Shown in pieces: positions 19,152 through 54,755 of a stretch of DNA of 55,586 nucleotides. Each line of letters opens with the position of its first letter. The first letter of the stretch is position 1. The notes beneath the pieces were generated by a model. The model had not been told where the DNA came from. It was given only the letters and a program-made list of their open reading frames with translations, and searched no databases. The stretch covers positions 1 to 55,586 of the forward strand of contig CADBZW010000024.1 of the NCBI GenBank assembly GCA_902799345.1, given 5' to 3'. This DNA comes from an uncultured Bacteroidia bacterium (GTDB lineage: Bacteria > Bacteroidota > Bacteroidia > Bacteroidales > F082). The position numbers and the translations under genes are program-made.

Positions 19152-20507
19152 TTAGAACATAACCGTTTCCGTTTCTCCTTGCAAATCCAAAAACAAGGTA
19201 TAATATATTGGCATATAAATCACTTGGCCATCTTGCCGTGTTTCCCTGTCATTGGAAAACACAATGGCCGACTTCACGTGATAATCAGGTGTGGAGAGTA
19301 GGTTGTTCAGGGCACTGTGAACCGAATAGTCTTTTCCCGATTTCACTTCAATGGGTAAAATACTGGTGCTCAAGTAATCGTCAATAAGGAAATCCACCTC
19401 TCCTTTCTTGCGGTTGTCGTAATAAAACAACCGATGCCCGTTGGCTTTCAGTTGCTGTGCGACGGCGCTCTCATAAACTGCACCGAGGTTGACGCTCTTT
19501 TGGTCCTCAAGGACTGGCCGCAAGTTGTTTCGGTAGAGTTGTGCTGTCAGCATACCTGCATCGTTGAGGTAGAGTTTAAGCAAGTTCTTGTGTACACTTT
19601 CGCTCAACGGGAAACGCGGATTGGAAACGGCATGGACGTCAAGTGTGATTCCCGAAGAGATAAGGTACTCGAACTCGTCCTGATATTGTGCAAAGCGGTC
19701 GCCGTCTTTGTCGCGAATGTCTTTGACCACAATCCGTTTCTTCTTGTTTTCCATCTGCGAGGGAATCATATCGTAGATTCGCCGTATCAGCAGGCGCTTT
19801 TGGCTGTCATGCTCGTATTTGGAGGCATCGTCGCCGTAGAGCGTCTTTATTGTATTGTGTATTTCTCTGACTTTTACAATGTTATGGGTCTCCAAATAAA
19901 CATTCACGGCATCGGGCATTCCACCGACGAGCAGGTAACGGCGAAACAAGCCAAGCAAATGTTGGTGTTGCTCCTCTGAAAGGCTTTCCTTGTTCGCGAA
20001 CTTTTTCCTCAACCCTTCAATGGCGTCCAAGTTGAAGCCATTGGCAATGAGGAACTCGCCAAAGTCAAGTTGGTACATCTCTTTACGAATAATGCTGCCA
20101 ACGGGGATGGAAGTTGTCGACCGCAAGGCGATGCCAAGCAGACTGCCGCTGGCAATGAAACGATAGCGGCGCTCCTGGCGGAAAAACTTCAGCATGGTAA
20201 GGTATTGCGGATAGGTTTGGATTTCGTCGAGGAAGACCAAAGTGTCGTCCGCATTGCCAAGGTGGTTGCCGGCAATCATGCTCAATGAGAAATAAAAAGC
20301 CTCAGTGGAATGGATGCCCTTGAATTGCTGTGGACCTTCGTTGTCTTCTGCAAAGTTCACTTCCACGAAGTTTTTGAATAGTCTTTTTCCTGTCTCTCTG
20401 ATGATAAAAGACTTGCCGACCTGTCTTGCGCCTTCCAAAACCAAAATCTTGTCCGATTTTGAAGTCAAGTGTGCCTCGATTTCCTTGCTGATTTTCCTAT
20501 ACAACAT
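19152..20507 (-). CDS. AAA-14/DUF4143 ATPase
   Basis: 451 aa. Walker A GARQVGKS (26-33) and Walker B TLVFLDEIQ (D94, E95) define an AAA-14 type ATPase. The C-terminal DUF4143 region carries a PD-(D/E)xK nuclease-like motif: KGEVDFLI followed by LPIEVKSGK near 375-400. Such genes are numerous and patchily distributed in Bacteroidota, and their function is unknown; a defence or mobile-element role has been considered. Four repeats at 33-bp spacing cover its promoter and leader (20516-20628). This suggests cooperative autoregulation. Confidence 0.88.
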   Translation of the reverse strand: MLYRKISKEIEAHLTSKSDKILVLEGARQVGKSFIIRETGKRLFKNFVEVNFAEDNEGPQQFKGIHSTEAFYFSLSMIAGNHLGNADDTLVFLDEIQTYPQYLTMLKFFRQERRYRFIASGSLLGIALRSTTSIPVGSIIRKEMYQLDFGEFLIANGFNLDAIEGLRKKFANKESLSEEQHQHLLGLFRRYLLVGGMPDAVNVYLETHNIVKVREIHNTIKTLYGDDASKYEHDSQKRLLIRRIYDMIPSQMENKKKRIVVKDIRDKDGDRFAQYQDEFEYLISSGITLDVHAVSNPRFPLSESVHKNLLKLYLNDAGMLTAQLYRNNLRPVLEDQKSVNLGAVYESAVAQQLKANGHRLFYYDNRKKGEVDFLIDDYLSTSILPIEVKSGKDYSVHSALNNLLSTPDYHVKSAIVFSNDRETRQDGQVIYMPIYYTLFLDLQGETETVMF

Positions 20508-20515
20508 AATTAAAA

Positions 20516-20628
20516 TACACTTTTCAATAACTATTTAGGCTGCAAATATACACTTTTCAATATAAAATCAACTCAAAAAACTACACTTTTCAATAAAAAT
20601 CCATGGTTCAAAACTACACTTTTCATGA
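20516..20628. repeat. Iteron-like array: four TACACTTTTCA repeats, exact 33-bp period
   Basis: TACACTTTTCA starts at 20516, 20549, 20582 and 20615; three of the four continue with ATA. The bases between copies are unrelated. Copy a lies 9 bp before the ATPase start codon, copy b touches the -7 box (20543-20550), and copies c and d lie upstream of the promoter. Three helical turns between copies place all of them on one face of the DNA. Confidence 0.88.
20543..20550 (-). promoter_or_regulatory. -7 box of the DUF4143 ATPase gene
   Basis: The minus strand reads TATATTTG. Its first two bases overlap repeat copy b, so a protein bound there would block or contact RNA polymerase. Confidence 0.65.
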
Positions 20629-20843
20629 ATTTGAAGTATTCATCTCCTCCTATCGGGTGTTTGAAGACTTGAAATGCCAATGTTCAAGATAGTCGGCAGC
20701 GATGTCGGCTTTTTTTGTGCCTGAAAATGAGAATTTTTCATCACTCTGCCCGCTTTTGGCAAAGTAAGGGTGTTGTTTTGTATCAGAAAAAAATCAAACG
20801 ATGAAAAATCAGCATTGCAGCAGCCGTATGTCCGAAAATTCCT
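20629..20843. other. Gene-free spacer
   Basis: Lies between the ATPase repeat array and the next promoter. I see no convincing gene, repeat or strong hairpin. An 89-codon minus-strand frame (20640-20909) has no protein-like features. Confidence 0.5.
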
Positions 20844-20851
20844 TATATTTG
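20844..20851 (+). promoter_or_regulatory. -7 box of the structured-leader/DUF4230 operon
   Basis: TATATTTG followed by CGG. The start near 20858 gives a leader of about 265 nt before the ATG at 21123. Confidence 0.65.
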
Positions 20852-20917
20852 CGGCGTAATCAAGCAAAAGAAAGGCAATTATCGAAGCAAAGACAAAAGA
20901 ATAAGACATACTGAAAA

Positions 20918-21052
20918 GCGGACAGACCGTTCTTGACTCCTAATTTACCACTTTGGCCGAAAGGCTGTACTTCAAGGATAGGTCAGTCCGCGCTGCAATG
21001 TTGTAGCGTGGATTGATTTGTATGAAGTACGGGTGTGGTAACCCAGGAGTCA
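20918..21052 (+). ncRNA. Candidate structured RNA (riboswitch- or ribozyme-like leader)
   Basis: Pairing by eye gives a compact fold. P2: 20934-20941 with 21045-21052 (8 bp). A 3x3 internal loop. P3: 20945-20951 with 21035-21041 (7 bp). Then a junction carrying a 4-bp hairpin with a GAAA tetraloop (20955-20966) and a long arm: P4 20967-20974 with 21023-21030 (8 bp perfect), a small bulge, and P5 20978-20997 with 21002-21021 (20 bp with six G-U pairs, loop AUGU). An upstream strand, 20918-20928, matches 20981-20991 in 10 of 11 positions, so it can invade P5 as an alternative helix. It is transcribed from 20844-20851 and ends 70 nt before the first ORF. I matched it to no known riboswitch class. 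Confidence 0.6.
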
Positions 21053-21122
21053 GGCAATGAGATTCACGCTTTCTTTATGCCACCGGACGAAACAGACAAA
21101 CTAATCCTAAAATCATACAATC

Positions 21123-21428
21123 ATGTTAGTAGCAATAGTAAATCAAGGAAGGATCGAAATCAAGCAAAGCACAGGCGGCACTTTAAGGACTCTGTCGCCA
21201 TCGGGTGGAGTTGTTTCCGCCTACATCAATGCCGACGAAACGCGTGTGGTTTATACCACAACCAAAGGCATTGTTGAAATCTGTAATACCACTGGCGGCG
21301 GCACGAAAAGAATCTGTCAAGACTGCACCGATGCAAGGTGGTGTGGTAATGACATCCAAGTAACAACCGCAAAAGGGCACACCGAACTTTGGAGAGCAAC
21401 GGGTGGAAAAATCAGGACAATCAGTTAA
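21123..21428 (+). CDS. Small repeat protein of unknown function
   Basis: 101 aa, no signal peptide. Three similar units are visible: GRIEIKQSTGGTLRTLS (9-25), GIVEICNTTGGGTKRICQ (about 48-65) and GHTELWRATGGKIRTIS (about 85-101), sharing G-x-x-E-x-x-x-[ST/A]-TGG and a basic residue before an Ile or Leu. They resemble beta-propeller blades or small beta-solenoid turns. I do not recognise a family. It is the first gene after the folded leader and stops 18 bp before the DUF4230 lipoprotein gene, so it shares the operon. Confidence 0.65.
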   Translation: MLVAIVNQGRIEIKQSTGGTLRTLSPSGGVVSAYINADETRVVYTTTKGIVEICNTTGGGTKRICQDCTDARWCGNDIQVTTAKGHTELWRATGGKIRTIS

Positions 21429-21446
21429 ACATCAAATCAATTCACT

Positions 21447-21998
21447 ATGAAGAAACTAATCCTATTGATGTGTGGGCTTGCGCTGCTTGGAATGGCGGCG
21501 TGCAAGCCTAAGGAAGACCCCATCAACAAAAAAATCATGGGGCTTGAATCTATGGCAGAGCTGGGAACGGTGGAATACACCGTGACAAAAATCATTAAAG
21601 CCAACGACCCGAAATGGTACAAGTATGGCGAAAGGAAAATCTTGTTCAGCAGTGTTGCTTATATCAAGGCCGGCATTGATATGCAAGAATTTTCGATGAA
21701 CAATGTGACTTACGATAAAGAGGCAAAATCCGTGTCTGTCGTTCTGCCGAGGGCAAAAGTCCTGTCGTTCAACATGCCACCCGAAAAAATCAACCTTGTC
21801 TTTTGTGAAACAACAGGGTCGCGAAAAGATTTCACTATTGAGGAAACCAACGACTTGAAAGTGCAAGCGGAGAACTCAATTCGCGAAGATATCCCCAATT
21901 TGGGCATCATCCAAGATGCGGAGAACAACGCCAAAGGCTTCTTCAAAGTCTTGCTGACGCAATTGGGGTTTGAAATCATAACCATCAAATTTGAATAA
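21447..21998 (+). CDS. DUF4230 lipoprotein
   Basis: 183 aa with a lipoprotein signal (GMAAC, Cys at residue 19), so anchored in the membrane with the domain in the periplasm. The body matches DUF4230 (ELGTVEYTVTKII; IKAGIDMQEFSMNNVTYD; VLPRAKVLS). The domain's function is unknown. The stop is 2 bp before the ATG of the second DUF4230 gene, so they form one operon, and the two products may interact. Confidence 0.8.
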   Translation: MKKLILLMCGLALLGMAACKPKEDPINKKIMGLESMAELGTVEYTVTKIIKANDPKWYKYGERKILFSSVAYIKAGIDMQEFSMNNVTYDKEAKSVSVVLPRAKVLSFNMPPEKINLVFCETTGSRKDFTIEETNDLKVQAENSIREDIPNLGIIQDAENNAKGFFKVLLTQLGFEIITIKFE

Positions 21999-22000
21999 CT

Positions 22001-22846
22001 ATGGAAAACAAAGAGACTATCAACACGGAGAACGCAAATAAAGTCAAAAAAGAGAACGCAAATAAAGTCCAAAAGGAGAACGCGAAGTCAAAGGGTGGCA
22101 AACCGAGCTTGCTCAAATTGAGTCCAACTCTAATGATTTCGATAGTCGTGCTTGTCGCCGCTTTCGTTTTCGTTTTCTTCATCAATCCTTTCCATTTCAA
22201 GTTCGGGTTTGCCAACACAAAACTGGAGATTGAGAAAACGACCAACTTGGTCACGGAAATCAAGAAAATCGCGGAGTTTACCACCGCTTGTTTCTATGAA
22301 GAACTTGTTATTCAAGACATAAAGTACAAATACAAGGAGCGTAAGATCTATAAAAAGAGCGATGTTTGGTGGAAAAGGCAAATCGGCAAGGATAAGGAAT
22401 TCGTCGGCGTAGAAATCGACTCGACTGAAATCGGTAAGATAGTCCTCATTGCCAAAGGGAAAATCCGAGCAGGCCTGGATTTTTCGAAACTGACCGAAAA
22501 CGACTTACGCATCCAAAACGACACGCTTTTTGCTACTTTGCCCCCAGCTGAAATCTTCGACATCATCATCAACCCATCTGACATTGAGTTTTTCCATCGT
22601 GATGGCGATTATTGGGATGATGCAAGCGTCGCCCAGTTAGTCAGTAAAGGAAAGGATACGATGTATAAGCACGCAATGGATGAAAACATTCTCGAAAAGG
22701 CCAACAAATACGGCGTTGAGAAGATGAGCAACATTTTCAAGACCTTTGGTTTCAAGGAAGCAATAGTCTCGATAAAAGAGCCAGAAGCCGTTTCCACATC
22801 TATCGAAATCAATCTTAACGAAGGTGAAACCAACACTAATTTATAA
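22001..22846 (+). CDS. DUF4230 membrane-anchored protein
   Basis: 281 aa. The N-terminus is charged and has a short internal repeat (ENANKVKK, ENANKVQK, ENAKSKGG), then one membrane helix (about 45-65), then a DUF4230 domain (TTNLVTEIKKIAEFTTACFY; GVEIDSTEIGKIVLIAKGKI; TLPPAEIFDIIINPSD). It is a divergent paralogue of the upstream lipoprotein but uses a transmembrane anchor. The N-terminal repeat is also visible in DNA as AACGCAAATAAAGTC copies (22031-22067). Confidence 0.8.
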   Translation: MENKETINTENANKVKKENANKVQKENAKSKGGKPSLLKLSPTLMISIVVLVAAFVFVFFINPFHFKFGFANTKLEIEKTTNLVTEIKKIAEFTTACFYEELVIQDIKYKYKERKIYKKSDVWWKRQIGKDKEFVGVEIDSTEIGKIVLIAKGKIRAGLDFSKLTENDLRIQNDTLFATLPPAEIFDIIINPSDIEFFHRDGDYWDDASVAQLVSKGKDTMYKHAMDENILEKANKYGVEKMSNIFKTFGFKEAIVSIKEPEAVSTSIEINLNEGETNTNL

Positions 22847-23096: not shown

Positions 23097-23123
23097 TTTT
23101 CTTTGTCAAAACCACTAATTTTG
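23093..23123 (+). promoter_or_regulatory. Promoter of the WYL regulator gene
   Basis: TTG at 23093-23095 and TAATTTTG at 23116-23123 with a 20-nt spacer. The ATG at 23142 is about 12 nt past the expected start, a very short leader. Confidence 0.65.
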
Positions 23124-23141
23124 CCTTCCAAATTACCCGCC

Positions 23142-24039
23142 ATGGACAAACTCATCAAATGCATCTGGATTGCCAACACCGTCGCTGATCGCCGCGACGC
23201 GGGCATCACCCTGAAGGAACTGAACGAACGATGGACGCGCGACGGCGACAACGACCCCATCCCCGAACGCTCGTTCCACAACTACCGCCAATACATCGCC
23301 GACGTGTTTGGCGTCGACATCGAATGTGACAAAAGCCGCAATGCCTACTACATTCCCCAAGGCGAGCGTGAGGAGATGCTCGGCAACGACCTCAAGATGT
23401 GGCTGCTGCACAGCTTTGCCGTCAACAACTGGCTTTCGGCAAACCTCGATTTGCGCAAGTGCGTCCAATTTGAACCCATTCCGGGAGGCATCGAGCATCT
23501 GGAGCCACTGATGGAAGCCTTGGAGAGAAACCTCGAAGTCGAAATGCACTACAAACGGTATTATTACACCGACCAATCCAAACGATACCTTCGCAAACCG
23601 CTCGCACTGAAGCTGTTCAAGCAACGTTGGTACCTCATCGCCCTCAACGAAAGGGAAGAAATCCGCTGCTTCGCCCTCGACCGCATTGACGATCTCAAAA
23701 CCACAGAAACGGTTTTCAAGAAGCCCGATGATTTCGACTTGGCGACTTATTTTAAGGATGCTTTCGGCATCTATGTGGAGCCTAATTTGCAGACGGAGGA
23801 AATCGTCGTCAAGGCCGACATCGACCAAAGCAACTTCCTGAAAGGCTTGCCCTTGCATCCATCACAACATATCGTGAAGGAGACGGAGAACTATTGCATT
23901 TTTTTCTTGGCGACTGAAGCCTTCCTACGACTTCATCCAGCAATTGCTCACGATGAACGCACATATCGAAGTGCTGGAGCCGGTTTCGCTGCGTGAAAGA
24001 TTCAAGGCCTTGCTGCAAGAAATGTTATCGAAGTATTGA
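23142..24039 (+). pseudogene. WYL-domain transcriptional regulator, frameshifted in a T7 run
   Basis: Ligand-sensing regulator: an N-terminal winged-helix part (ERWTRDGDNDPIPERSFHNY), a WYL domain (KPLALKLFKQRWYLIALNER) and a C-terminal extension. The frame is lost at a run of seven T (23899-23905). With six T the protein reads CIFSWRLKPSYDFIQQLL and continues naturally to the stop at 24037-24039 (EVLEPVSLRERFKALLQEML); as written it ends at 23996 in an unrelated tail. The total of 898 bp equals a normal CDS of about 298 aa plus one base. Sequencing error, phase variation by slipped-strand replication and true decay are all possible. Confidence 0.8.
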
Positions 24040-24182: not shown

Positions 24183-24239
24183 CACCCATAACAATGAAAG
24201 AAAGCCATCCGACACAATCAACCATTGCATCAATACTTT

Positions 24240-25970
24240 ATGAGAAGACTTGTTTTCACCGTAATCGCCTTGTTTTTAGGCATCATCGGTTCGACCGCCC
24301 AAACCACCATCGACCCTGCGCTACGCGAGGAGATGGGCAAGCGGGGCGATGACGAGAAAATCAAAATCGTCGTCCTGATGAACGAACAATCTGACGCGAC
24401 GGCATTAAGCCGCGAGGCCAACTTCTTCGCCAACAAACAAGAGCGTCGCGCCTTCGTGGTGGAAACGCTGAAGCGCCAGGCCGAAACCTCGCAAGCCGAG
24501 CTGCTTGGCCTGCTTGAGGAGATGAAGCAACACGATATGGTGGCCGACATACAATCGCTCTGGCTCGTGAATGCCATCAGCTGCCAAGCCACCAAAACGG
24601 CCATCAACAGCCTTGAGCAACAGCGGAGCATCAAGACTATCGCCTATCGCGAAGAAACCCAATGGATTGCCGATGGTGAGGTCAAATCCGCTGTGAAAAA
24701 CGGTGACCGCGACATTGCCGAGTTTTTGTACCAAATCGACGTGCCGCCCGTATGGGACTTGGGCTACACGGGCCAAGGTGTGCTCGTCGCCATCATCGAT
24801 ACGGGTGTGCGCCTCGACCATGAGGACTTGGCCGGTCGGTTTTGGGATGGCGGTAGCGAATACCCCAACCATGGCTACGATTTCTATTACAACGACAACG
24901 ACCCCGATGATATTTACGGCCACGGCACCGAGGTGGCAGGCATCGTTTGCGGAACGGGTGCTGGCGGGACAAAGACCGGCGTGGCTCCCGATGCCACCAT
25001 CATGGTCTTGAAAGCCTTCAGAGACGACGGCGTTGGCGAAGAGACGCCTTGGGTCGCAGCGATGCAGTTCGCCATTGAGCATGGTGCTGATGTGCTCAAC
25101 ATGTCGTTGGGCCGTCCCAAGCCCGAACCCGCCCAAAAACTGATGATGCGACAGGCCTGCGACAACACTTTGGCTGCTGGCGTCGTTGCTGCAGTTTGCG
25201 CTGGCAATGTGGGCTCGGTGCAGTTCATGATTCCCGTGCCGTACAACATCTACACCCCTGGCGACTGCCCGCCGCCCCATCTGCATCCCGACCAAATGGT
25301 GAATGCAGGCGGCACGAGCTGCGTGGTTTGCGTTGGCTCCGTTCTTTCCGACAACGGCTTTAACGAAATCTCGTCAATAGGGCCATCGCAATGGATGGAT
25401 GTGGCCGAATACAACGACTATCCCTACACCGCTGGCAGCACGACGGAAATCGGGCTGATCCGCCCCGACATCTGCGCGCCTGGCAACGACCTCACCACCC
25501 TCGACCATGGGAATAACAGCGGCTATACGCTTTTCAGCGGCACCTCGGCTGCCTCACCCTGCGTGGCTGGCACCATCGCCCTGATGCTCTCCAAAAACCC
25601 TAATCTGACCCCTGCGCAAATCGACGAAATCTTAGAAAACACCGCCTTGAAGCTCACTGAGCATAAGAGCAACAACTTCGGATCAGGCGTCGTGGATGCC
25701 TTGGCCGCAGTCAATGCCGTGGATTACGACAATGTAGAAGAGGCTGAATTGCAGTCGGTTCAGGTGTATCCCAATCCAACCACGGGCAGTTTCACCGTGA
25801 GTTGCGAAGGGATGAGCCAAATCGACGTTTATGCCATCGACGGACGTTTGGTGCGCAGCATCTGTGCCGACCGCGATAGCTATCAAATCGATGGCCTAGA
25901 AAGCGGTGTTTACATGTTGCAAGTTACGAACGGAAGCTCCAGTTTGGTCCAAAAGATCATTAAAATCTGA
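24240..25970 (+). CDS. T9SS subtilisin-like protease A
   Basis: 576 aa S8 serine protease exported through the Sec and T9SS pathways. Signal peptide (about 1-20, ending TAQ), a propeptide-like region (about 25-145), then the S8 domain with D187 (IIDTGV), H228 (GHGTEVAG), oxyanion N323 (CAGN) and S436 (GTSAASP). The C-terminal 80 residues are a T9SS sorting domain (VYPNPTTGSFTV). The ATG at 24240 is preferred to a TTG five codons upstream. Gene B follows after 5 bp. By its subtype (GDDEKI opening, LLGLLEEM propeptide) it pairs with the gene at 27811. Confidence 0.93.
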   Translation: MRRLVFTVIALFLGIIGSTAQTTIDPALREEMGKRGDDEKIKIVVLMNEQSDATALSREANFFANKQERRAFVVETLKRQAETSQAELLGLLEEMKQHDMVADIQSLWLVNAISCQATKTAINSLEQQRSIKTIAYREETQWIADGEVKSAVKNGDRDIAEFLYQIDVPPVWDLGYTGQGVLVAIIDTGVRLDHEDLAGRFWDGGSEYPNHGYDFYYNDNDPDDIYGHGTEVAGIVCGTGAGGTKTGVAPDATIMVLKAFRDDGVGEETPWVAAMQFAIEHGADVLNMSLGRPKPEPAQKLMMRQACDNTLAAGVVAAVCAGNVGSVQFMIPVPYNIYTPGDCPPPHLHPDQMVNAGGTSCVVCVGSVLSDNGFNEISSIGPSQWMDVAEYNDYPYTAGSTTEIGLIRPDICAPGNDLTTLDHGNNSGYTLFSGTSAASPCVAGTIALMLSKNPNLTPAQIDEILENTALKLTEHKSNNFGSGVVDALAAVNAVDYDNVEEAELQSVQVYPNPTTGSFTVSCEGMSQIDVYAIDGRLVRSICADRDSYQIDGLESGVYMLQVTNGSSSLVQKIIKI

Positions 25971-25975
25971 GAACC

Positions 25976-27688
25976 ATGAAAAAGCCCTTTTTGATCATCA
26001 CATTGGCATTAGCAAGCCTTTTTGTTCAAGCCCAAACCATTGACCCAAGGCTGAGCGAGGAAATGAACCGCCGCGCGGAAGACGAGAAAATTGAGGTTTT
26101 CGTCTTGATGAAAGCGCAATACGACCGCACACAACTGTGTCGCCAAGCCGATTTCTTTGCTACCAAAGCAGAACGCAAGGCTTTTGTAATCAACGAATTG
26201 AAAGCCTTTACCGAGGCATCGCAATACGACCTGAAGCAAATGCTTTCCGAAATGGAGCGTCGTGGCTTGACCACGTCGGCCCAGTCGATTTGGACGGCCA
26301 ACGCGGTTTACTTTGCGGCCACCAAAGCCGCCATTCAAGACCTTGCGCAAAGGCCTGACATTAAAACGATTGCCTTCTGCCACAAGCAAAACCTGATTCC
26401 CGAGACCGAACGGGGCAAGGTGGTAGAAGCTACCCGAGAAACCACGCAAAATGTGCTGATGGTCAATGCCGACAAAGTGTGGGAATTGGGCTATCGAGGC
26501 GAAGGCGTTTTGGTTTCCGTCGTCGATTCGGGCGTCAACTACAACCATTTGGACGTGGCCGACCACCTCTGGGACGGTGGCGAGGAGTTCCCGCTTCACG
26601 GCGTCGACATCGTGAATGGCGATCTCGACCCCATGGACGACCTCGATCACGGCACACACTGCGCCGGTACCGTTTTGGGCGACGGCACAGCAGGCTCGCT
26701 GACGGGTGTGGCTCCCGAAGCCACGCTGATGTGCGTCAAAAGCATTGACTCAACGGGCTTTGGCGGTGCGGTCAACATTTCGAGAGGCATGGAATGGTCA
26801 GTGGAGCATGGCTGCGATCTCATCAGCATGTCGTTGGGTATGAGTCTTGCCGAAATGCCCGACAAAGAGATGCTGCGTCGCACATGTGAGTCCGTTCTTG
26901 ATGCGGGCATCGTGGCGGCTGTCTGTGCCGGCAACGAGGGCCATCTTCAGAACTGGGGCTATGGACCCGTGCCCGACAACGTGCGCGTGCCTGCCAGCTG
27001 TCCTCCGCCTTATCTCGACCCCGACCAGCTGGAGAACCCTGGCGGCCTGACCTGCGTGATTGCCGTGGGTGCCGTCGACTATAATGACGTTGCGGCCTAT
27101 TTCACCTGCGAGGGCCCCGTCACATGGCAAGACTCCGAGTTTGGCGACTATCCCTACAACCCCGGCATCGGCCTCATCCGTCCCGACGTAAGCGGTCCCG
27201 GCGTGGCCATCAAGTCGCTCAACTACCTCACCAACGACGGTTACACCAACATGGACGGCACCTCGATGGCGACGCCTTGTGTGGCAGGCATCATCGCCCT
27301 GATGCTCCAGAAGAACCCCGAGCTGACCCCTGCTGAGATCTGTCGCATTTTGGAAGAGACCTCCGTCAAGCTCACCGAGCACAAGAGCAACCTCACCGGC
27401 GTGGGTCGCGTGGATGCCTTGGCCGCCATCGAAGCTGTGCAGCCTTACGACGGCCTTGCGGAGAACGACGTCAAAGCCACCATCTATCCCAACCCAAGTG
27501 CCGACGTTTTCACCATCCGTTGCGAAGGCATGAGACACGTTGAAGTCTATTCCGTGGACGGCAAGTTGGTGAAAAGCCAGCCCACCACCGGCTCGCAATG
27601 CCAAATCAGCGGCTTGGATAGCGGCGTTTATGTGGTGAAGGTCATGGCGGACAGCGGCACCGTGACGAAGAGGATGGTGAAACTGTAG
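25976..27688 (+). CDS. T9SS subtilisin-like protease B
   Basis: 570 aa, same layout: signal peptide (about 1-20), propeptide region, S8 domain with D184 (VVDSGV), H225 (DHGTHCAG), N320 (CAGNEG) and S430 (GTSMATP), and T9SS sorting domain (IYPNPSADVFTI). The subtype (AEDEKIEVFVLMKAQYDRTQ; SWEDVEHGCDLISMS-like core with WSVEHGCDLIS) pairs it with the gene at 29769. It starts 5 bp after gene A, so the two are cotranscribed. Confidence 0.93.
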   Translation: MKKPFLIITLALASLFVQAQTIDPRLSEEMNRRAEDEKIEVFVLMKAQYDRTQLCRQADFFATKAERKAFVINELKAFTEASQYDLKQMLSEMERRGLTTSAQSIWTANAVYFAATKAAIQDLAQRPDIKTIAFCHKQNLIPETERGKVVEATRETTQNVLMVNADKVWELGYRGEGVLVSVVDSGVNYNHLDVADHLWDGGEEFPLHGVDIVNGDLDPMDDLDHGTHCAGTVLGDGTAGSLTGVAPEATLMCVKSIDSTGFGGAVNISRGMEWSVEHGCDLISMSLGMSLAEMPDKEMLRRTCESVLDAGIVAAVCAGNEGHLQNWGYGPVPDNVRVPASCPPPYLDPDQLENPGGLTCVIAVGAVDYNDVAAYFTCEGPVTWQDSEFGDYPYNPGIGLIRPDVSGPGVAIKSLNYLTNDGYTNMDGTSMATPCVAGIIALMLQKNPELTPAEICRILEETSVKLTEHKSNLTGVGRVDALAAIEAVQPYDGLAENDVKATIYPNPSADVFTIRCEGMRHVEVYSVDGKLVKSQPTTGSQCQISGLDSGVYVVKVMADSGTVTKRMVKL

Positions 27689-52883: not shown

Positions 52884-53759
52884 ATGCTCATCGACCAGTT
52901 CATAGCATACATCCAGGCAGAGAAGCGTTTCTCGCCGCTGACCGTCGGAGCCTACCAACGCGACATGGAACAGTTTGCAGCTTTCCTGAAAGAGGATTTT
53001 GAGCTCGACGACCTCACCCGTGTGAAGACCACCATGGTGAAATCGTATGTCGTCAAGCTGAAAGAGGACGGGCTGGTCAACCGAAGCATCAACCGTAAGA
53101 TCTCCACGCTGCGCACCTTTTATAAATACTGCCTGCGCGAGGGCCTCGTCGAGAAGTCGCCCACGACGGGTGTCAAGGCGCTGAAGCTGCCCAAGACCCT
53201 CGTCAAGTTCGTCACCGAGTCTGATATTAATAAGGTGTCGTTTCCCGACGACGACGATTTCGCCACCTGCCGCGACCATCTGCTCTTCGAGCTGTTGTAT
53301 CAGACGGGCATGCGTCAGGCCGAGTTGCGCGGTTTGCATGACGCCGATGTCGACAGGGTGGCCATGCAGCTGAAAGTTCACGGCAAACGCAATAAAGACC
53401 GTTTTGTGCCGTTATCATCGCAGATGATAAAGCTGATAGAACGATACCAAGCCCTGCGCGACGCCGCCTTTGATGTGCGTGCCGACCGTTTGCTCCTCAA
53501 CGACAAAGGGGAGGAGATGTCGCCCTCGTACGTATATAATAAGGTGCATCGTATGCTGGAAGGCGTCACCACGCTGAAGCAGAAAAGCCCGCACGTGCTG
53601 CGCCACACCTTCGCCACGCATCTCTTGGACGAGGGCGCCAGCCTGGTGGCGATACAGAAGCTGCTTGGGCACGAAGACCTGGCCACGACTCAGATCTATG
53701 CTCACAACACGATAGAACAACTAAAGAAAATCCATAAACAAGCCCACCCGAAAGGGTGA
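52884..53759 (+). CDS. XerC/D-type tyrosine recombinase
   Basis: 291 aa. N-terminal SAM-like domain and catalytic domain with R144 (TGMRQAEL), the HGKRNKDR Lys, H237 and R240 (HVLRHTFATHLL), H263 (LLGHEDL) and Y272 (TTQIYAH): the complete tyrosine-recombinase set. The length fits chromosomal XerC/XerD, which resolve dimers at dif, rather than larger phage integrases. The ATG is 7 bp past a terminator stem with no visible SD, so expression may depend on read-through or on refolding of that hairpin. Confidence 0.9.
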   Translation: MLIDQFIAYIQAEKRFSPLTVGAYQRDMEQFAAFLKEDFELDDLTRVKTTMVKSYVVKLKEDGLVNRSINRKISTLRTFYKYCLREGLVEKSPTTGVKALKLPKTLVKFVTESDINKVSFPDDDDFATCRDHLLFELLYQTGMRQAELRGLHDADVDRVAMQLKVHGKRNKDRFVPLSSQMIKLIERYQALRDAAFDVRADRLLLNDKGEEMSPSYVYNKVHRMLEGVTTLKQKSPHVLRHTFATHLLDEGASLVAIQKLLGHEDLATTQIYAHNTIEQLKKIHKQAHPKG

Positions 53760-54368: not shown

Positions 54369-54441
54369 GCCGGTATAACTCAGTTGGTAGAGTAGCTGAT
54401 TTGTAATCAGCCTGTCGGCGGTTCGAGTCCGTCTACCGGCT
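54369..54441 (+). tRNA. tRNA-Thr (TGT)
   Basis: Acceptor GCCGGTA/TACCGGC, anticodon loop TTTGTAA giving TGT. No encoded CCA. Confidence 0.95.
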
Positions 54442-54452
54442 CAGTTAATACT

Positions 54453-54534
54453 GGGGGAGTCGCATAGTGGCAATTGCAACAGACTGTAAATCTGTCCGGG
54501 TATCCGTTCGGTGGTTCGAGTCCACCCTCCCCCA
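54453..54534 (+). tRNA. tRNA-Tyr (GTA)
   Basis: Acceptor GGGGGAG/CTCCCCC, anticodon loop CTGTAAA giving GTA, and a long variable arm as usual for bacterial tRNA-Tyr. Confidence 0.95.
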
Positions 54535-54549
54535 CAGTCAAGCGGACAA

Positions 54550-54622
54550 GCGGAAGTAGCTCATTTGGCAGAGCGAAAGCCTTCCAAGCTTTAGGTGGCG
54601 GGTTCGAGCCCCGTCTTCCGCT
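54550..54622 (+). tRNA. tRNA-Gly (TCC)
   Basis: Acceptor GCGGAAG/CTTCCGC, anticodon loop CTTCCAA giving TCC. Confidence 0.95.
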
Positions 54623-54637
54623 CAGATGAACAAACAA

Positions 54638-54709
54638 GCCGATGTAGCTCAGCGGTAGAGCACTTCCTTGGTAAGGAAGGGGTCGGGAGTTCAATTCTCC
54701 CCATCGGCT
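54638..54709 (+). tRNA. tRNA-Thr (GGT)
   Basis: Acceptor GCCGATG/CATCGGC, anticodon loop TTGGTAA giving GGT. It is 46 bp before tuf; Thr-Tyr-Gly-Thr-tuf is a widespread conserved order. Confidence 0.95.
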
Positions 54710-54755
54710 CGATTTTTTATGGATAAGAGTTCATAACCTTAAATAGAAAAGTAAA

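Follow-up and report, generated by a model that had tools for sequence, protein, structure and literature searches.

A family of Bacteroidota 5′ leader RNAs with two competing sets of conserved helices, probably a transcription attenuator

The RNA at positions 20914-21076 of the window (the whole 55,586-nt stretch of DNA analyzed here, from an uncultured Bacteroidia bacterium) belongs, as judged by sequence comparison, to a large family of 5′ leader RNAs in Bacteroidota and is not a leader tied to the DUF4230 genes that follow it. We consider it probable that the RNA is a portable transcription attenuator that works without a leader peptide. The alignments show two mutually exclusive helix sets, both as conserved pairing, together with a T tract and a position ahead of a gene.

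The first-pass annotation of this DNA had proposed a compact folded RNA at 20918-21052, lying between a TAnnTTTG box and the first open reading frame of an operon. Its nested helices recur in the predicted fold of 20934-21052 (-65.5 kcal/mol) at the coordinates and lengths it gave, and the box and the downstream start (21123) are likewise in place. The 265-nt stretch 20858-21122 is unusually stable (z = -5.74 against 200 dinucleotide shuffles, none of which was equally stable), and 20914-21076 was the most stable of 1370 tiles (163 nt, both strands of the window, steps of 81). The exchangeable upstream strand that the annotation described is also present, 20918-20928 being complementary to 20981-20991 at 10 of 11 positions, and through this pairing the 20-bp helix would lose its 3′ strand. 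The extent originally assigned to the RNA was too short, however, as its relatives put the end at 21076, which adds a further strand (21061-21070) and a T-rich tract. The leader unit of the window, from promoter box to T tract, is about 220 nt, and the loop of its terminator-like helix T is long (46 nt). The parts of the window copy and its surroundings are as follows:

20803-21076, + strand: promoter-plus-RNA block common to L009 (90%), L012 (80%) and L011 (75%); blastn of 20400-21700 and alignment.
20844-20851, + strand: TAnnTTTG promoter-like box, TATATTTG; read from the sequence.
20914-21076, + strand: extent of the type I leader RNA according to covariance models R1 and R2.
20915-20920, + strand: strand 1, AAAGCG, which can close the RNA with 21067-21072 (P0); lowest-energy fold of the full RNA.
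20918-20936, + strand: strand 1 continued, with its alternative partner within 20972-20991 (strand 2), giving state A; complementarity and rival-set count.
20934-20941 with 21045-21052, + strand: P1, 8 bp; predicted fold and covariation alignment.
20945-20951 with 21035-21041, + strand: P2, 7 bp; predicted fold and covariation alignment.
20955-20966, + strand: P3 hairpin, GGCC-GAAA-GGCT, with a GAAA loop; predicted fold.
20967-20974 with 21023-21030, + strand: P4, 8 bp; predicted fold and covariation alignment.
20978-20997 with 21002-21021, + strand: P5, 20 bp, its 5′ strand being strand 2, giving state B; predicted fold and covariation alignment.
21005-21014, + strand: strand 3, AGCGTGGATT, with 21061-21070 as alternative partner in place of strand 2; rival-set count.
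21061-21070, + strand: strand 4, GATTCACGCT, the 3′ half of terminator-like helix T; rival-set count.
21070-21076, + strand: T-rich tract; T count after the last helix strand.
21123-21428, + strand: first gene behind the window copy, 101 aa, without a Pfam match at E ≤ 0.001; open reading frame list and Pfam.
21447-21998, + strand: DUF4230 protein with a lipoprotein-like start (by eye); Pfam.
22001-22846, + strand: DUF4230 protein; Pfam.

Farther along the window the DUF4230 genes are followed by a gene for a WYL-domain protein (23103-23996) and by two adjacent genes (24225-25970 and 25976-27688) for related proteins that by eye look like secreted proteases of the subtilisin type. A tyrosine-integrase match (PF00589) lies near a cluster of four tRNA genes (53211-53711 and 54369-54710) and may mark an integrated element.

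A blastn search with 20900-21122 as query yielded relatives in 20 of 100 genomes at E ≤ 0.1, mostly as very short matches. In L009, L011, and L012 the homology begins near 20803, upstream of the promoter box, and breaks off at about 21070-21076, and the genes behind differ. To follow the family we used three covariance models, built from seven copies (R1), from the 86 type I copies (R2), and from twelve type II copies (R3), and all genomes searched with them were within the phylum Bacteroidota. R1 matched 76 of 99 genomes of the genus at E ≤ 0.01 (own genome included), with 13 matches in G022 and 11 in G120, counts that include weak matches. The genome of the window itself has four strong type I copies and three such weak matches at E ≤ 1, one of which is the antisense of the window copy. 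Across 80 sources (79 fetched stretches, nearly all picked for a listed match, plus the window; 754 kb) R1 gave 86 type I copies at E ≤ 0.001, all of which were taken as family members. In the order, R1 matched 31 of 393 genomes at E ≤ 1e-4, and its weaker matches represent a second type (type II) that has the same architecture and a different P2 sequence.

R3 matched at least 102 of 395 genomes of the class and at least 161 of 384 of the order, lower bounds because seven candidates were scored per genome. R2, by comparison, matched 2 of 395 genomes of the phylum, the window's own being one, and type I therefore seems narrow and type II wide in distribution. If our reading is correct, a regulator absent from Rfam would be present in at least 26% of the Bacteroidia and at least 42% of the Bacteroidales genomes sampled. 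The genome of the window carries type II copies as well (L383, L384, and L385), the first of them directly ahead of a match to a helix-turn-helix (HTH) gene (G000:C25:24288). Over fetched sequence R3 gave 43 matches in 203 kb, one of them antisense (L394), and R2 gave 29 in 85 kb at E ≤ 0.01, again with one antisense (L258). An exact pattern search found 107 stretches in named genomes, and for the 80 listed the title is Bacteroidales, Bacteroidia, Bacteroidetes or Paludibacteraceae bacterium.

This distribution bears on the suggestion of the first-pass annotation that the RNA serves the DUF4230 operon. The 101-aa first gene occurs in only 3 of the 99 genus genomes, as against 76 for the RNA, which stands ahead of unrelated genes elsewhere; we therefore reject the DUF4230 genes, and the operon, as the key to the RNA. 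A scan of the genome contigs with the 101-aa protein as query gave no relative.

The annotation had also named covariation of the helices in homologous leaders as a check, and for the long hairpin (state B) the covariation is strong. In type I (84 distinct of the 86 copies) 98.8% of the cells are paired, 21 of 29 pairs are double-changed, and none of 500 shuffles did as well. In type II (42 distinct rows, one of them antisense) state B with P0 has 96.7% of its cells paired and 27 of 36 pairs double-changed, with P0 itself at 92.5% and showing double changes. P0 is seen in the window's own fold, but by eye strand 1 does not fit it in most type I copies, and we therefore claim this helix only for type II and the window copy. 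One row, L117, was out of frame and was omitted from alignment A6.

Support for the rival helix set (state A) is weaker than for the long hairpin. In type I (PA1 and T) 96.0% of the cells are paired, with 55 double-changed cells compared to 20.3 in shuffles and 40-51% pairing in slid versions, and in type II, with PA2 added, 90.9% are paired, with 25 double-changed cells compared to 6.8 and 40-56% in slid versions. The counts are not biased toward the rival set, because the alignments were fitted to the long hairpin; the shuffle controls amount to no formal proof, because they keep column make-up and not kinship. The double changes of state A sit mostly in PA1 (strands 1:2), which in type I is paired in 94.2% of cells and double-changed at five of nine pairs. 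Of the type I copies 73 of 86, and of the type II copies 34 of 53, have a 5′ hairpin of 5 bp or more, H0, compared to 13-15% of shuffled ends; it also competes with the 1:2 pairing, and part of the variation in PA1 could serve H0. Helix T (3:4) is paired in 97.9% of cells in type I and 97.3% in type II. It is nearly invariant in type I (one of nine pairs double-changed), and its covariation comes from four type II cells, a count made after removal of one antisense and one duplicate row. In every one of the 86 type I copies, five to eight of the 8 nt that follow the last helix strand are T, and in some type II copies (L324, L320, and L399) the tract is weak or absent. The RNA thus combines a terminator-like helix and T tract with another conserved helix that excludes them, the arrangement expected of a transcription attenuator.

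In the mechanism we propose, four strands would compete for partners. In state A, strand 1 (20915-20936) would pair with strand 2 (20972-20991) and so free strand 3 (21005-21014) to pair with strand 4 (21061-21070), and the resulting helix T with its T tract would end transcription. In state B, the partner of strand 2 would instead be strand 3, within the long hairpin P1-P5. Strand 4 would then be left over or, as in type II and the predicted fold of the window copy, be tied to strand 1 through P0, and RNA polymerase would continue to the gene, which as a rule starts within 100 nt. The balance between the two states would be set by a ligand, a protein or the pace of transcription. What we infer from these features is an exchange of the helix sets in the cell, termination at helix T, state B as the ON state, and a signal that governs the choice; the two states lead to sharp, testable predictions for single base changes.

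Folds predicted in order of synthesis are consistent with such a course. For type I RNA cut just before strand 3, PA1 (at least six of its nine pairs) is predicted in 79 of 86 copies; when only strand 4 is missing, the long hairpin is predicted in 84 of 86; and the complete RNA has the hairpin in 84 of 86 and helix T in one, the hybrid L073. The corresponding figures for type II are 33 of 41 for PA1 and then 41 of 41 for the hairpin, with the complete RNA in state B in 40 of 41, helix T in 1 of 41 and P0 in 33 of 41. The 1:2 pairing would therefore form first and the hairpin would be the stable end state, and since the complete RNA is almost always predicted in state B, termination would have to depend on timing (kinetics) or a factor. 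L073, which is also the copy listed as L010, forms the exception: its 5′ half is like the window subtype, its 3′ half like the L012 subtype, and its long hairpin is broken because the halves come from different subtypes. It may reflect recombination inside the RNA, which could be homologous, and provides a naturally occurring test of the terminator state.

The prediction of state B as the minimum-energy fold for almost every complete copy, and the covariation of the rod-closing P0 in type II, would also suit a structured 5′ leader that does not switch at all. In such a leader a P0-P5 rod would shield the mRNA or be the binding site of a protein or small RNA, and the complementarity of strands 1:2 and 3:4 would be a by-product of the likeness of strand 1 to strand 3 and of strand 2 to strand 4. 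We regard this as rather unlikely, since PA1 lies partly outside the strands common to P0 and P5b and yet is paired and double-changed to the extent given above in type I, and since the T tract is kept in every type I copy, including many whose strand 1 is by eye too A-poor to pair with it.

The strand logic of the proposed attenuator is that of the trp-type attenuators, in which mutually exclusive helices (1:2, 2:3, and 3:4) form ahead of a gene and the last is followed by a T tract. The leader RNA shares these exclusive helices, the T tract and the pre-gene position, and differs in having no conserved leader peptide, a much longer antiterminator hairpin, and many unrelated genes rather than one pathway behind it. 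The shared strand logic could in principle mean that here, as in trp, the ribosome controls attenuation while it translates a leader peptide encoded over strand 1. We find this scarcely credible: the window has no ATG, GTG or TTG between the expected transcription start and strand 1, and an ATG frame of at least five codons runs into strand 1 in only 6 of 48 promoter-bearing copies, all six in the subgroup that precedes genes for leucine-rich repeat (LRR) proteins. With no conserved leader peptide, a translating ribosome is an unlikely sensor for the attenuator proposed here. The c-di-GMP riboswitches occur in many copies per genome ahead of diverse surface and regulatory genes. Transcription-terminating riboswitches, these included, resemble the leader RNA in being structured with an alternative terminator and in having many copies and diverse genes; the leader RNA differs in that it matches no Rfam family and that we recognized no separate aptamer domain. 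We would call it an attenuator by design, unusual for its lack of a leader peptide, its four exchanging strands, and the very varied genes downstream.

The first-pass annotation had matched the RNA to no known class, and the Rfam 15 covariance models agree, in that the RNA matches no family at gathering thresholds, at which the window gives only tRNAs. At E ≤ 10 there were only weak matches, either to miRNA, snoRNA or CRISPR-repeat models or outside the RNA. A literature search over titles and the openings of abstracts found no description of this leader RNA, most subscription papers being outside its reach. In the survey of Weinberg (2010, PMC2864571), 6S-flavo, Flavo-1, Bacteroidales-1, Bacteroides-1, and Bacteroid-trp are given as Bacteroidetes RNA motifs with Rfam numbers, and Bacteroides-2 and GUCCY-hairpin as Bacteroidetes motifs without them. 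The comparison covers the first five, which are structured and from the same phylum; none matched the leader RNA if they are still in Rfam 15. A study of human microbiomes (PMC8040213) describes palindromic Bacteroidetes candidates with predicted terminators (HMP2_4205, HMP2_1065, and HMP2_1032), which are like the leader RNA in phylum, palindromic form and terminators; the leader RNA may overlap with some of the candidates of that study. A separate, sub-threshold match to the DUF805b small RNA motif (31.5 bits, cut-off 35.6) was seen at L325:1736-1768, about 77 nt behind a type II copy.

The genes that follow the RNA argue for a leader. A next gene was called for 80 of the 86 type I copies and lies on the same strand in 75 and on the opposite strand in five; 66 of the 75 start within 100 nt, with a median gap of 44 nt. 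Four of the opposite-strand calls (L068:7852, L066:4487, L134, and L140) are probably errors because a same-strand HTH gene was found behind each, leaving L069:16518 as the exception. In type II, a next gene was called for 39 of 41 distinct copies, always on the strand of the RNA. Several type I copies (L111, L067:6784, both L065 copies, L081, and L106) have only 1-5 nt between the T tract and the start codon, too few for another promoter. This same-strand position ahead of genes in many genomes and the compensatory changes in base pairs point to a cis-regulatory RNA, one of the two roles that the first-pass annotation had considered. The other, a separate small RNA, could arise as a by-product of termination, and in the window a promoter box and a T tract do bound a unit of the length given above. 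Even so, a small RNA that acts in trans from a promoter and terminator of its own, placed beside genes by chance or shared transport, seems highly improbable to us given how closely the next genes follow and that 38 of 86 type I copies have no promoter box nearby.

As to what these genes encode, Pfam analysis of 69 following proteins identified 14 with a type IX secretion system (T9SS) sorting domain, 10 LRR_5, 9 HTH_26, 3 HTH_3, and 5 each for two zinc-ribbon models, with none for the window's own gene, and the proteins share no evident pathway. PADLOC models matched only a few of them. A local HTH profile found an HTH gene behind 28 of the 86 type I copies, and of 20 hand-picked HTH matches away from known type I copies, 13 had a type I or type II RNA 26-132 nt upstream on the same strand (L364 being weak and L365 cut by a contig end) and seven had none. 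HTH genes are present in 92 of 99 genus genomes, and RNA-bearing genomes such as G051, G034, and G042 have none. We therefore rejected the HTH protein as an obligatory partner of the RNA; the counts signify association, not requirement. By eye, many HTH-linked copies (L113, L120, L128, L132, and similar) share ATGTAG, a start codon with a stop immediately after it, in the leader upstream of the RNA.

A TAnnTTTG box lies within 150 nt upstream of 48 of 86 type I copies, compared to 300 of 3580 stretches drawn at random from these loci, with coding sequence included. A same-strand gene ends within 130 nt upstream of 23 of the 38 copies without a box and of 14 of the 48 with one (p = 0.005), and many copies thus seem to lie inside operons. 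Among 59 upstream proteins (a few being added second genes of pairs) Pfam identified 10 DUF1016_N, 10 HEPN, 4 Fic, 4 nucleotidyltransferase, 2 YafQ, and 2 Panacea. Over 80 stretches, 9 of 12 DUF1016, 10 of 10 HEPN, 4 of 14 MNT, and 5 of 10 Fic genes lay within 250 nt upstream of an RNA and on its strand, and several type II copies are preceded by PIN-, HEPN-, and Rpn-like genes (named by eye). Varied toxin-antitoxin-like modules adjoin the RNA upstream on the same strand in L104, L066, L064, L106, L065, and L067; at an rpsB-tsf-like locus (by eye; L065, L066, and L067) three genomes have different toxin-antitoxin-like sets together with the RNA and HTH genes.

Such neighbors raise the question of whether the element acts at the level of DNA, as a folded recombination site or a small mobile repeat (MITE or REP), with the toxin-antitoxin, HTH, and other genes as its cassettes. 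Integron attC sites are long imperfect palindromes beside toxin-antitoxin and other cassettes, and the leader RNA has a long palindrome and cassette-like neighbors in common with them. Beyond the toxin-antitoxin-like genes directly upstream, such an element would fit the tandem copies spaced 1-3 kb apart, the several type II copies close to contig ends, the two-subtype hybrid L010/L073, and the sharp end of homology at the T tract with other genes behind; in groups drawn by eye, median identity is 0.70-0.84 in the RNA and 0.38-0.47 in the 40 nt behind it, and copies with a common downstream zinc-ribbon gene share little upstream. We nevertheless think it improbable. Unlike attC sites, the leader RNA has a fixed orientation and relation to the downstream start codon, a promoter box in about half of its copies, a T tract, and two conserved folds, and compensatory changes via G-U suit an RNA. 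No PF00589 integrase lies beside the RNA arrays among the matches listed for five genomes with fragmented assemblies: in G022, G120, and G018 no listed RNA match shares a contig with a PF00589 hit, and the nearest on the same contig is about 198 kb away in G047 and about 32 kb away in the window's contig. Type I was without a match in viral contigs (exact pattern search) and in plasmids or phages (blastn of one copy). A gene that by eye resembles a REP-associated Y1 transposase was seen at L105:8336-8929, about 4 kb behind an RNA copy.

Taking the RNA as an attenuator, we put forward tentatively, as a possibility in which we have less than even confidence, that hundreds of copies of this two-state module, moved as a unit and often set behind toxin-antitoxin cassettes, place unrelated surface, regulatory, and defense genes of Bacteroidota under a single signal or antitermination factor. 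If the attenuator reading itself is correct, the RNA would be a general leader switch for the phylum and would link the expression of surface proteins (T9SS and LRR), small HTH regulators, and genes that follow toxin-antitoxin modules. In the LRR-protein subgroup (L079, L082, L083, L084, and L087-L089) an extra palindrome, GCGCATnnGGCGC, is visible by eye between the promoter box and the RNA.
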